Shown here piece by piece: positions 1,979 to 43,850 of a stretch of 64,000 bases of DNA (the stretch's first letter is position 1; every line of letters starts with the position of its first letter). Below the pieces are notes generated by a model. The model was not told the DNA's origin, did not search any database, and saw nothing but the letters and a program-made list of their open reading frames with translations. This stretch comes from Tissierellia bacterium KA00581 (lineage in GTDB: Bacteria > Bacillota > Clostridia > Tissierellales > Peptoniphilaceae), in NCBI GenBank assembly GCA_001552895.1, contig KQ959663.1:1-64000 (forward strand), in the 5' to 3' direction. Both the position numbers and the translations under genes were made by a program.

Positions 1979-2010
1979 TTAGAACACTTCTAACTAATTT
2001 CTCCAGCTCA
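1979..2010 (-). promoter_or_regulatory. Candidate bacterial SECIS element of arsS (UGA at 2008-2010)
   Basis: The in-frame TGA at 2008-2010 is followed after 14 nt by a perfect 6-bp hairpin, TTAGAA-GTG-TTCTAA (1979-1993, minus strand). The apical loop begins with G about 20 nt after the UGA, which is within the spacing known for bacterial SECIS elements recognised by SelB. The frame then closes five codons later with TAG at 1990-1992, so the hairpin overlaps the gene end. The small loop and AU-rich stem keep this a candidate. Confidence 0.65.
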
Positions 2011-3039
2011 AGAACTTCCTGCTCCTGCAGTACAAGCATAACAATGATTTCCTAATGCTATTTTTCTTTTTGAAAAATTATGGTTTTTATAATCTGAAAT
2101 ATGTATTTTATTAGAATTTATTTTTAAATCTATAGCTTGATTAAAATCACAATCAAATATATAACCATCATATGAAACATTGATTTCATTTCTACACATT
2201 AAAAATTCTACCGTATCTTCATTATAAGCATTAAATAACTTTAACATATAAGATTTTAAATGATCTTTTTTATAAAGGCTCATGCCAAATCTTCCTATTG
2301 GATTATTAGTTATTGTAAATAAATTATTAAAAACAATTCCATATTTTTCTGACAATTTCTTTCTATATTCATTTTCTAAATATTTTTGTGAATCAGGTAA
2401 AAAAGCTCCATCTGGATTATAAACCAAATTTAATGTAAGATCTTTACCATATCCAACAGAGTTAAGTTTTTTTAATACTTCAATAGAACTATCATACACT
2501 CCCTCTCCTCTTATACCGTCTGTAGTTTCTTTTGTATAAAATGGAAGTGAACAAAATATTGTAACTTTATTATCTTTATAAAATTCTATTAAATGTCTAT
2601 ATTTCTCTTGTAATAAAATACATAAGTTAGTTCTAACTATAACTTCTTTAGCAATCTTTCTTGATTGAGCAACTAAATATTCAAAATTCGGGATCATTTC
2701 AGGAGCTCCTCCTGTTATATCCATAGTTTTAAAATTATGTTTTTTAAATACAAACAAACAATCATCCATAATTTCTTTACTCATATATTCTTTTCTATGT
2801 GGTCCAGCTTGAACATGACAATGCTTACAACAAAGATTACAAATTTTACCTATATTAAGTTGCATTGTATCTATATTTGAAGTATATAAAAATTTTTTAT
2901 TTTTAACTTTATCTAAAAAATTTGGAATATAATCTAAATTTTCTAAAACTTTTCTAGAAAATTCTATTGTGTTAGAAAAAGAAACTTTTTCTTTATCTTC
3001 TATACATTCTTTAAAATTTCTTTTAATTAAATTAAAGAT
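1990..3039 (-). CDS. arsS: Radical SAM arsenosugar-type biosynthesis selenoprotein ArsS
   Basis: Radical SAM enzyme of the ArsS (rSAM/selenodomain) family, which joins a SAM-derived 5'-deoxyadenosyl group to dimethylated arsenic. The radical SAM cluster motif is CNLCCKHC, followed by HVQAGPHRKE. The C-terminus reads CYACTAGAGSS, then TGA, then AGEIS and TAG; in this family that position is Cys or selenocysteine. Reading TGA as Sec gives about 349 residues, the usual length. The start is uncertain: family-like sequence (YIPNFLDKVKNKK) continues upstream of the first ATG (2865), the frame is open to 3097, and there is no ATG, GTG or TTG. A GAGGG box at 3047-3051 is 7 nt before an ATC at 3037-3039, used here as the tentative start. 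Confidence 0.85.
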
Positions 3040-3115
3040 ATTATCACCCTCTAAAAAATTTTTTATAAAACTATAAAAGCGTATATTTCTATTAATTTAA
3101 TTTATATAGAAACTT

Positions 3116-3457
3116 TTATAATTTCATTTCTGAAATGGTATTTTTCATTGTTATACCATTTACAAGTGTTATACCAGCTTGCATAGAAGAAGCTACATGT
3201 AAAACTTCTGTGATTTCTTCTTCTGTTACTCCAAGTTGAACTAAGCTTTGAGTATAAGCATCTATACAATATGGACAACGTGCACTAAAGGCAACAGCTA
3301 ATGCACAAAGTGCTTTTTCTCTTTTTGTTAACGCTCCATCTGAAGTACTATCTGAATAATACTTTAAAAATTCTTCCCATAATTTCTTAGCATTTTCTGC
3401 TAAAATACCATTTGCAAATCCTTCTAAATCTTTTTTTTCAAAATAATTGTTATTCAA
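3116..3457 (-). CDS. Arsenosugar biosynthesis-associated AhpD-like peroxidase-family protein
   Basis: This 113-residue carboxymuconolactone decarboxylase/AhpD-like protein has the redox motif CPYC followed by IDAYTQS around residues 61-69. It matches the small AhpD-like family that travels with the selenodomain radical SAM enzyme, where the first Cys is sometimes Sec; here both are Cys codons. It is the first gene of the minus-strand operon, with AAGGAGGAAA before its ATG, and arsS follows. A role as thiol or selenol redox partner of the pathway is inferred from family and context. Confidence 0.85.
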   Translation of the reverse strand: MNNNYFEKKDLEGFANGILAENAKKLWEEFLKYYSDSTSDGALTKREKALCALAVAFSARCPYCIDAYTQSLVQLGVTEEEITEVLHVASSMQAGITLVNGITMKNTISEMKL

Positions 3458-3631: not shown

Positions 3632-4297
3632 ATGAAAGAATATGCTGTTATAATTTTTACAAGATTTCCTTCAAAAAATAAGGTAAAAACCAGATTAAAT
3701 AAAAATTTAGATTCAAATTTAGTTTTAAAAATACATAAAGCTATGATTAAAGATACTATAAATATTTGTAAAAATAATTTTTCTGATATATTGATATTTA
3801 TAACTGAATATGAAAAATTAAATTCTAATAATAGAAAAAATTTTTTAAATGAAAAATTTATTTTTCCACAAGAAAATTGTCCTTTTGGAGAAAAAATGTT
3901 TAAATCTTTTGAAAAAGCTTTTGAATTAGGTTATAAAAAAGTTATATTAATAGGAACTGATATTCCAACTATTTTAAAAAAAGATATAGAATTGGCATTA
4001 AAATCACTAGATGAATTTGATTGTTGTATAAATGAAAGTTTTGACAAAGGATACTATTTGATTGGAGTTAAAAATAAAATTAAAGAGCTATTTAATGAAG
4101 AAATTTTTAAAACTAATCTAGTTTTTAAAAATACAATTAAAGTTTTAAAAGACAAAAATTTACAATTTACTAATGGACGTGTTTTAAGGGATATAGATGA
4201 AAAAGAAGATTTAGATTATTTTATAAAAAATGAATTTGAATGTTCAAAATATGAGAATTTAAAAAATTTACTAAAGGAGAAATACATTGAAAAATAA
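3632..4297 (+). CDS. rSAM/selenodomain-associated transferase 1 (CofC-like, DUF2064)
   Basis: This 221-residue nucleotidyl/glycosyltransferase-fold protein belongs to the CofC-like family that co-occurs with the selenodomain radical SAM protein. Family features are the N-terminal IIFTRFPSKNKVKTRL (nucleotide-binding start with conserved K-T-R), LIGTDIPT near residue 110 and the FDKGYYLIGV segment near 137, normally DDGGYYLIG. It starts at an ATG preceded by GGTGAT and is the first gene of the plus-strand arm. Its end overlaps the TTG start of the next gene by 11 bases, implying translational coupling. The transferred group is unknown; a sugar nucleotide is likely from the fold. Confidence 0.85.
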   Translation: MKEYAVIIFTRFPSKNKVKTRLNKNLDSNLVLKIHKAMIKDTINICKNNFSDILIFITEYEKLNSNNRKNFLNEKFIFPQENCPFGEKMFKSFEKAFELGYKKVILIGTDIPTILKKDIELALKSLDEFDCCINESFDKGYYLIGVKNKIKELFNEEIFKTNLVFKNTIKVLKDKNLQFTNGRVLRDIDEKEDLDYFIKNEFECSKYENLKNLLKEKYIEK

Positions 4298-4931
4298 AAA
4301 AAAGATAGTATCGATTACTTTTATTTTGATTATAGTATTAATAACTTACTTTATTTTTAAAATATTTACACCTGAAAAAATAAGAAATATAATACAAAGT
4401 TACGGAAAAAATTCTGCTATTATATATATTTTATTATTTTCAATCTTACCAATTTTTTTCTTTCCTGTACCAATACTAGCTTTAGCTGCAGGTATTTCAT
4501 TTGGACTTTTTGAAGGAGTTATTTATACAATCTTAGGTGCTATGATTAATAGTTCTATAATGTTTATAATGGCAAAAAAATTCGCCAAAGATAAAGTTTT
4601 AGAAATTTTCAGAAAAAAAATAAGTAAAAAATGGTATGATAAAATTATAAATGCAGAAAAAAACAAAGGTATTTTTATTATATTTTTAATGAGACTTTTG
4701 CCTATAGCACCTTATAATGTTATAAATTATTTATCAGGACTTACAGAAATTTCTTTTTTTAAATATTCTTTAGCAACATTTTTTGGTATAATTCCTGGAA
4801 CTTTTGTATTTTTAAATGTTGGAGATAAAGCTATAAATGTATATAGTAACGAATTTGTTATATCAATTATAGCATTTATAGTACTTACAATTGTCTCATT
4901 TGTTTTAATAAAAAAATTTGATAAGGAATAA
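4287..4931 (+). CDS. TVP38/TMEM64 family membrane protein (second copy)
   Basis: This 214-residue membrane protein has the same SNARE-associated domain as the protein at 1245-1952: PVPILALAAGISFG in the first half and MRLLPIAPYNVINYLSG in the second, the family's R-L-L-P-x-x-P motif. Its start is a TTG at 4287 behind AAAGGAGAAAT, inside the end of the transferase 1 gene. It lies between the two selenodomain-associated transferases with almost no spacing, so it should act in the same pathway. The two TVP38 copies are clearly diverged and are not a recent duplication. Confidence 0.85.
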   Translation: MKNKKKIVSITFILIIVLITYFIFKIFTPEKIRNIIQSYGKNSAIIYILLFSILPIFFFPVPILALAAGISFGLFEGVIYTILGAMINSSIMFIMAKKFAKDKVLEIFRKKISKKWYDKIINAEKNKGIFIIFLMRLLPIAPYNVINYLSGLTEISFFKYSLATFFGIIPGTFVFLNVGDKAINVYSNEFVISIIAFIVLTIVSFVLIKKFDKE

Positions 4932-5686: not shown

Positions 5687-6652
5687 TTACTTTCTATTTT
5701 TCTTATAATACTTTAATTTTAAAGAATTTTTAAAATAACTTAAATCTACTTCTTCATTTACAGCTAAAATTTCACTTAATATATGTTTTACATTTTTTAT
5801 ATTAGATTTTTTAAAACTTGCAGAACAACTTGCACAATATGTATAAATATTTTCATTTATCTCAGATTTTACTGTATTCATCATTTCTTTTGCTAAATCA
5901 GGTTCTTTAGATTTAGCACCACCACCCATTCCACAGCACATAACTTTTCTAAATTTAACTTTTCCATTTGGAACAAATGGTTTTATTTGATTTAATAATT
6001 CTTTAGTTTTTTTATCAGGGCAAGGCATAAATATTTCAGCTTTTTCATAAGTAACATTTAAAAGATTTTCTTCTTTTAATTTTTGATAAATAGAAATAAC
6101 TTCTATATTTAGCTTATCCATATGCTCTTTAAAAAAATAAAAACAATTAGGACAAACTGTTACAATTCTTTTAACAGACTTTTTATTATATAATTTTTTT
6201 AATCTATTTAAATTTTTTTCAAAATCAAAAATTAATCCACTATCTTCAAGTGGTTTACCACAACAATCTATAGAAAAATCCATTTTCCCATAAAATAAAT
6301 CTATTAAATATTTTGTCGTTTTTGGATAATGTCCAGGAAAAGCACATCCAAACATTAAAATATCTTTTGTTTTTTTATTTGAATTATTTCTAAATTTATA
6401 TGGAGATTTCATAAATTTAACTAAAGAATATCCTTTCAAATCCTCTCTGTGAGAAATAGCTACTTTAGCACCGTCTAAATCGATAGGACAAGCTCTTAAA
6501 CAGCTATCACACATAAAACAACTTTTTGCTAAATTAGGATTTTTTGCAAAATCTGCTAAATCAATTTTATATTTAGTTAAAAATAAGCACTTTTTTGTAC
6601 AAGCATTACAATGTATACATTCATTTGATACTTTTTTTAAATATTCTTTCAT
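5687..6652 (-). CDS. Two-[4Fe-4S], CCG-domain oxidoreductase (GlpC/HdrD-like)
   Basis: This 321-residue protein has two ferredoxin-type clusters at the N-terminus (CIHCNACTKKC near 13-23 and CFMCDSCLRACP near 45-56). Two cysteine-rich CCG domains follow, with CCGKPLEDSG near 130 and CCGMGGGAKSKEPDLAKE near 240. Such proteins are electron-transfer subunits of respiratory dehydrogenases or heterodisulfide reductase-like complexes. It is the last gene of a minus-strand group (dehydrogenase, two rhodaneses, this gene) converging on the selenodomain cluster. It may feed electrons to sulfur or selenium chemistry; that is inference. All cluster positions are Cys codons, none TGA. Confidence 0.8.
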   Translation of the reverse strand: MKEYLKKVSNECIHCNACTKKCLFLTKYKIDLADFAKNPNLAKSCFMCDSCLRACPIDLDGAKVAISHREDLKGYSLVKFMKSPYKFRNNSNKKTKDILMFGCAFPGHYPKTTKYLIDLFYGKMDFSIDCCGKPLEDSGLIFDFEKNLNRLKKLYNKKSVKRIVTVCPNCFYFFKEHMDKLNIEVISIYQKLKEENLLNVTYEKAEIFMPCPDKKTKELLNQIKPFVPNGKVKFRKVMCCGMGGGAKSKEPDLAKEMMNTVKSEINENIYTYCASCSASFKKSNIKNVKHILSEILAVNEEVDLSYFKNSLKLKYYKKNRK

Positions 6653-14836: not shown

Positions 14837-14842
14837 ATATCT

Positions 14843-14953
14843 GTCTTCAGGGCGAGGGTTGTTTCCTCACCGGCAGTTAAAGTCTGCGAGCCTTTTTGGT
14901 TGAATTGGTGAAATTCCAATACCGACAGTTAAAGTCTGGATGAAAGAAGATTT
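14843..14953 (+). promoter_or_regulatory. FMN riboswitch (RFN element)
   Basis: The conserved RFN sequence blocks appear in order: CTTCAGGGCGAGGGT, CACCGGCAGTTAAAGTCTGC, GAGCC, GGTGAAATTCC, ACCGACAGTTAAAGTC, TGGATGAAAGAAGA. The 5' and 3' ends pair as the P1 stem. It binds FMN and is followed by a terminator hairpin, so FMN should cause premature termination and switch off riboflavin uptake. Confidence 0.95.
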
Positions 14954-14959
14954 GATTCA

Positions 14960-43599: not shown

Positions 43600-43850
43600 A
43601 TATATAAAATAAAAAAACTTTCATCTCTTAAGAGACGAAAGTTAAATTTTTCCGCGGTACCACTCTAGTTAGTATTAACTCACTTTAAAATTATAACGTA
43701 ATCAACGGCAAATGCATTTCATAAACAAGTTCAATATATCAAAATACTATTTTTCACCAAACAACAGCTCTCTAAAATTTCAATAATATTTACTACTTTT
43801 AATCATAAATTTAATAAATATATAAATTACAATAGATATGATAACATATA
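43600..43850 (-). promoter_or_regulatory. T-box riboswitch of leuS
   Basis: The minus strand contains the T-box AGAGTGGTACCGCGG (43651-43665) and the terminator hairpin AACTTTCGTCTC/GAGATGAAAGTT followed by seven T residues at about 43609-43645. Upstream lies a stem I region with AGAGAGCTG and TTGGTG, and a candidate CTT leucine specifier in TTGAACTTG. Uncharged leucine tRNA should stabilise the antiterminator and turn leuS on. Confidence 0.92.

Follow-up and report, generated by a model that had tools for sequence, protein, structure and literature searches.

Does the arsS gene on the minus strand of this window (the whole 64,000-nucleotide stretch of Tissierellia bacterium KA00581 DNA analysed here) end at its first in-frame TGA, or is that TGA read as selenocysteine (Sec)? 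Our reading of the sequence gives the frame as ...HCYACTAGAGSS, then TGA (2008-2010), then TAG (1990-1992), and the read-through tail can equally be written ...GNHCYACTAGAGSS, TGA, AGEIS, TAG, the five codons between the two triplets being GCT GGA GAA ATT AGT. The preliminary description had already reported AGEIS followed by TAG beyond the TGA; the same frame was recovered here, its range of 1979-2010 is exact, and the strand, which it had left out, is the minus strand. With UGA as Sec and a probable AUC start, the coding region spans 1990-3039 (349 residues plus the stop), which is the start used for numbering in the alignment and the structural model, and Sec falls at residue 344 in the motif GSSU. 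The true stop, TAG, lies within the 5' arm of a hairpin.

The read-through protein belongs to TIGR04167, with a score of 422.5 bits (cut-off 300) over profile positions 4-303 of 303, and its PF04055 (radical SAM) and PF12345 (C-terminal DUF3641) domains are also over cut-off. In an alignment of 36 sequences, made of the window protein and 35 chosen homologues (20 out of 30 loci that the scan of the order gave and 15 out of 23 from the scan of named genomes; dropped were near-duplicates, the copy of the window itself and a handful of others, L044, with GSS-C, and L027, with GFT-C, among them), position 344 is Cys or Sec in all 36 rows, U being treated as C by the aligner. S342, S343 and G346 around it are likewise invariant, as are the radical SAM cysteines of the CxxxCxxC motif (C67, C71 and C74). 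The earlier claim that the family goes on through Cys or Sec at this place is thus borne out by the C-terminal alignment that had been proposed for it, as none of the 36 sequences stops at SS. Of 249 genomes in the order, 31 have an ArsS over cut-off, interrupted by a single in-frame TGA in 15 of them and uninterrupted in 16; the residue at the UGA position was read in 30 of the 31 (15 Sec, 15 Cys), the ArsS of G026, which has no in-frame stop and for which there is no locus, standing outside these 30. In a tree of 15 Sec and 36 Cys rows built with the Sec/Cys residue masked, at least three changes between the two forms are needed, two or more of them required by strongly supported branches, so the Sec and Cys forms of ArsS have been swapped more than once.

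These data bear directly on the simplest alternative, that UGA is a real stop, that ArsS ends at GSS and that the five codons after it are there by chance. A mechanical open reading frame call does terminate at the UGA, and only five codons lie beyond it, but the unbroken Cys/Sec column, with every aligned ArsS continuing past it, makes this alternative very improbable. The residues after the UGA moreover resemble the tails of the Cys forms, and the UGA is kept in the arsS genes of both other Parvimonas loci, those of the nearest named relatives of the window protein, Parvimonas parva (83%) and Parvimonas micra (79%). These relatives point to a Parvimonas as the likely source of the window. 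The full Sec machinery and further UGA-Sec genes in the genome also stand against a real stop. The sole match to tRNA-Sec above the cut-off of 47 scores 70.7 bits and is called by ARAGORN as well, with anticodon tca, while the genes for SelD, SelA and SelB are adjacent (C18:136058-140390) and all over their family cut-offs. Two such genes are those of GrdA (CFVU) and SelD (SGU), each with an in-frame UGA. The preliminary description had named absence of SelB or tRNA-Sec, or homologues that stop naturally at SS, as what would speak against it; SelB and tRNA-Sec are both present, and no aligned sequence stops there. SelB co-occurrence was considered as a discriminator between Sec and Cys forms and set aside as weak, since SelB is found in 15/15 genomes with the UGA type and also in 14/16 with the Cys type. 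Frame, family, conserved column, machinery and comparative hairpin were all computed for this gene, and we infer from the locus the actual insertion of Sec. Taken whole, the arsS locus is almost certainly best explained by read-through of UGA as Sec; judged from its sequence, the gene appears to place this residue close to the C-terminus of a radical SAM enzyme that handles arsenic.

The hairpin (TTAGAA-GTG-TTCTAA, 1979-1993, minus strand) consists of TTAGAA at 1993-1988, GTG at 1987-1985 and TTCTAA at 1984-1979. It had been described earlier as lying at bacterial SECIS distance, and this holds, the loop beginning 20 nt past the UGA. According to the legend of Fig. 2 in PMC13188914, the bSECIS model has a loop of 3-9 nt and an upper stem of 4-16 bp; the passages of that source on the model also give a G in the first two loop positions, a loop 16-37 nt after the UGA and a free energy of at most -7.5 kcal/mol. 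Set against the model as given there, the window hairpin agrees in its GTG loop of 3 nt, its stem of six Watson-Crick pairs, its apical G (found at loop position 1 or 2 in 15/15 UGA-type homologues) and its 20 nt spacing. The fold energy is -6.7 kcal/mol over 55 nt from the UGA region, short of -7.5, and -11.8 over 76 nt from before the UGA, the passage giving its threshold without the stretch to be folded. Folded as a single sequence, none of three stretches exceeds its shuffles in stability (z 0.21, -0.75 and 0.35); the hairpin is ordinary for AT-rich sequence, and single-sequence folding was dropped as proof of a SECIS.

Comparison of homologues was more informative. Covariation was attempted in the MAFFT register, where the hairpin pairs were misaligned, because the spacing between UGA and hairpin differs between clades, and the score fell below shuffles; trimming the hairpins and aligning them anew with MAFFT lost the register again. 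The register-free contrast between Sec and Cys forms is therefore our main test of the hairpin. Scanning for a stem of at least four Watson-Crick pairs that closes a loop of 3-5 nt beginning 15-20 nt past the codon, we found one in 15/15 UGA-type versus 1/15 Cys-type homologues (Mann-Whitney p 1.2e-6), a contrast somewhat favoured by the choice of this loop range after a wider scan had shown the Sec-type hairpins, and a p-value that overstates independence, the homologues being related. The observed mean stem score was matched by 0/500 shuffles for the Sec type and 482/500 for the Cys type, and the loop starts 16-20 nt after the UGA in all 15 UGA-type homologues. That wider scan, which had accepted any stem whose loop lay 10-31 nt past the codon, gave a noisier picture, with a shuffle p below 0.05 in 4/15 Sec-type and 1/15 Cys-type sequences. 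A register set by hand, a choice that leans towards the structure, has the four core pairs in 60/60 cells with 2, 3, 3 and 2 pair types, and the next outer pair in 10/15.

It could be argued that UGA does encode Sec and that the functional SECIS is a longer or different structure. The unremarkable local stability of the short hairpin would fit such a view, as would the wider pairing of the 76-nt stretch that begins ahead of the UGA and the lack of a simple stem in the genome's own GrdA under the same scan. We consider it unlikely, as all the UGA-type homologues retain the hairpin's position, its apical G and compensatory differences, and the stem is missing in 14 of the 15 Cys-type ones. With the short hairpin as the putative SECIS, its placement may also bear on the next gene, which encodes a VTT-domain membrane protein (PF09335) at 1245-1952 on the minus strand. 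The Shine-Dalgarno sequence of this next gene follows directly after the hairpin in both other Parvimonas loci, which at most hints at a mutual influence between Sec insertion in arsS and initiation of that gene.

The other end of the gene raised a question that the preliminary description had missed. It had stated that conventional annotation would truncate the protein before Sec, and a mechanical call does end at the UGA; residues are probably lost at the N-terminus too. The mechanical call takes as start the ATG at 2863-2865 (minus strand), giving an open reading frame of 285 aa that begins only eight codons before the first radical SAM cysteine, and this ATG is probably an internal Met. 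In most other ArsS genes the available starts lie about 22-60 codons or more before that cysteine (L032 and L061 are exceptions), and the residues upstream of the ATG align with other ArsS, for example with L013, where the match covers query residues 38-368 (counting from 3096). In the AlphaFold model, residues 21-33 (AUC numbering) form a helix in the confident part, which residues 1-17 do not belong to. Between the upstream stop and the ATG there is no in-frame ATG, GTG or TTG, and for this reason the AUC at 3037-3039 (minus strand) is the probable start. The conserved block opens at this ATC in the window, at ATC in P. micra and at ATT in P. parva, in each case 7 nt after the end position of the Shine-Dalgarno core: GAGGGTGAT in the window, where this Shine-Dalgarno-like sequence occupies 3043-3051 (minus strand), GAGGGTGAT in P. 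micra and GGAGTTGAT in P. parva. The conserved AUC/AUU and Shine-Dalgarno-like sequence together cover 3037-3051 (minus strand), with equivalents in L012 and L011. Sorted by codon position, the three pairs differ within the extension at 9/4/13, 11/6/16 and 8/6/15 sites, only a mild excess at the third position. A TTG at -35 was also considered as the start and rejected, since it is present in both other Parvimonas loci but is TTA in the window.

From the conservation in these three loci, AUC/AUU is the likely start of arsS. A parallel is found in Staphylococcus aureus, where conserved AUU/AUA starts behind an extended Shine-Dalgarno sequence lower expression, according to PMC13009471. On balance we favour the view that Parvimonas arsS is non-standard at both ends, with a conserved AUC/AUU start and a UGA-Sec whose SECIS contains the stop, although we hold it with some reserve. 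If it is true, ArsS would be throttled at initiation and made dependent on the selenium supply close to termination, and both ends would escape standard gene callers, which keep 285 of the 349 residues.

The sequence of events at this locus may be pictured as follows. The ribosome would probably begin at the AUC at 3037-3039; at the UGA at 2008-2010, the hairpin at 1979-1993 would guide SelB in delivering Sec-tRNA-Sec; and five codons after Sec, translation would stop at the UAG within that hairpin. In the predicted protein the radical SAM core (CxxxCxxC) would be followed by a C-terminal domain holding four cysteines and then by Sec344 at the tail. The AlphaFold model, built from 36 rows, has a mean pLDDT of 89 and a pTM of 0.88, and Sec344 lies at the tail, adjoining residues 345-349 with pLDDT below 50. 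The best Foldseek match of this model in the PDB is SkfB (6efn; E 2e-12, TM 0.53 by query length), which we take to be a SPASM/twitch radical SAM enzyme; the fold matches ArsS, but identity is 17% and SkfB is a RiPP maturase, not an arsenic enzyme. Auxiliary clusters of SPASM/twitch proteins follow the pattern C-x(9-15)-G-x4-C, and the invariant C282, G292 and C297 of ArsS fit it. The four invariant C-terminal cysteines (C282, C297, C333 and C336) resemble auxiliary iron-sulfur cluster ligands, C333 and C336 being the further candidates. The residue at 344 had been called the key residue of the protein; its conservation speaks for its importance and is silent on its function. The Sec344 selenolate may bind the trivalent arsenic substrate or tune electron transfer, and would act during addition of the 5'-deoxyadenosyl radical to arsenic. 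The reaction expected of a TIGR04167 member is transfer of the 5'-deoxyadenosyl group onto dimethylated arsenic.

The presumed product of ArsS in this organism has to be weighed against the neighbouring genes. Upstream of arsS, a gene at 3116-3457 (minus strand) encodes the CxxC form of an arsenosugar-associated, AhpD-type peroxidase-like protein (TIGR04169, 124.6 bits, cut-off 120). On the plus strand follow members of TIGR04282 (3632-4297; 146.9 bits, cut-off 134) and TIGR04283 (4935-5648; 199.1 bits, cut-off 182), both families of arsenosugar biosynthesis glycosyltransferases, with a second VTT-domain membrane protein (PF09335) between them at 4287-4931; an APH-type kinase family protein (PF01636) is encoded at 271-1236 on the minus strand. 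The genome's only strong match to ArsM lies about 8.5 kb past the window, on the contig that contains it (L010 8455-9222, minus strand), and it too contains a UGA (MYGTUIAGAL). It scores 269 bits on NF008823 (cut-off 263) and 94 bits on the arsenosugar-type ArsM model NF038099, whose cut-off is 400. Since this Sec-type ArsM is in the same genome, two arsenic-related enzymes are predicted selenoproteins here. That the only strong ArsM is unlinked, Sec-type and so far below the arsenosugar-type cut-off would suit a selenoprotein of the ArsS family whose product here is not an arsenosugar, as would the three related genomes in which it is instead a Cys-type ArsM that lies within 100 bases of arsS. 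With TIGR04169, TIGR04282 and TIGR04283 genes over cut-off at the locus, this alternative is possible but doubtful.

ArsM was matched at 1e-40 in 27/31 genomes with ArsS, and among the 30 loci read of 32 matches the corresponding residue is Sec in 17 and Cys in 13. No strict pairing of Sec or Cys between ArsM and ArsS was found; several genomes combine Sec-ArsM with Cys-ArsS. Both sister genomes with arsS have a different Sec-ArsM (HATUVAGSI), and from these motifs the Sec-ArsM of the window genome may have been acquired separately. Beside the Sec-ArsM, a rhodanese-like open reading frame (L010 7614-8345, minus strand) ends in CPK-TGA-V-stop, where the TGA is either a real stop or part of a C-terminal CxxU; no matching CPK tail was seen in the two other Parvimonas ArsM loci.

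The window ArsS, presumed to carry Sec344, is a further example of an already catalogued selenoprotein family. TIGR04167 (rSAM_SeCys) is named "arsenosugar biosynthesis radical SAM (seleno)protein ArsS" in NCBIfam and has the same GSS[C/U] tail and similar locus partners; we see no essential difference from it, the inferred AUC/AUU start being a Parvimonas peculiarity. The family is entered as rSAM_SeCys in PMC9312934. A 2026 review of selenoproteomes (PMC13188914) lists a TIGR04167 radical SAM domain protein, GxxU, AAR34688.1, among predicted families and credits it to Zhang and Gladyshev 2005; AAR34688.1 is a separate record with Sec in the same family, and its pattern fits the GSSU of the window protein. 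ArsS of the same named family was characterised by Cheng et al. 2021, as cited in PMC12159101. Going by the openings of abstracts, our literature search apparently turned up no study about Parvimonas selenoproteins. The gain lies in an annotation of arsenic-handling ArsS that would be corrected at both ends, and in a compact comparative set of 15 Sec and 15 Cys ArsS within one bacterial order for asking why ArsS uses selenium.

The less expected items are the AUC start of arsS and a second UGA gene in the window. The latter (61225-62409, minus strand) is a MetE-like gene of the cobalamin-independent methionine synthase family, with an in-frame UGA at 61747-61749, and is below every NCBIfam cut-off. 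The UGA position is Cys in 25/27 related loci, and a sister genome has a second UGA copy, 96% identical; no further UGA copy was found among the matches, which came from 5 of 391 genomes in a class-wide draw. Both UGA copies carry GGTCA-AGGT-TGATC with the loop 22 nt after the UGA, which fits the bSECIS pattern as given in the passages of PMC13188914, and the fold of this hairpin is not better than shuffles. The review PMC13188914 has no mention of methionine synthase, MetE, homocysteine or PF01717, PMC12013277 has none of methionine synthase or MetE, and no MetE-like selenoprotein appeared in the portions of text returned by full-text literature searches. From its sequence and its Cys homologues, this gene is possibly an undescribed selenoprotein family. 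Elsewhere in the window, the "diclust_near_Sec" model NF045663 has a partial relative at 5687-6652 (minus strand; 90 bits, cut-off 530), an FMN riboswitch lies at 14839-14955 (plus strand) and a T-box leader at 43628-43815 (minus strand).
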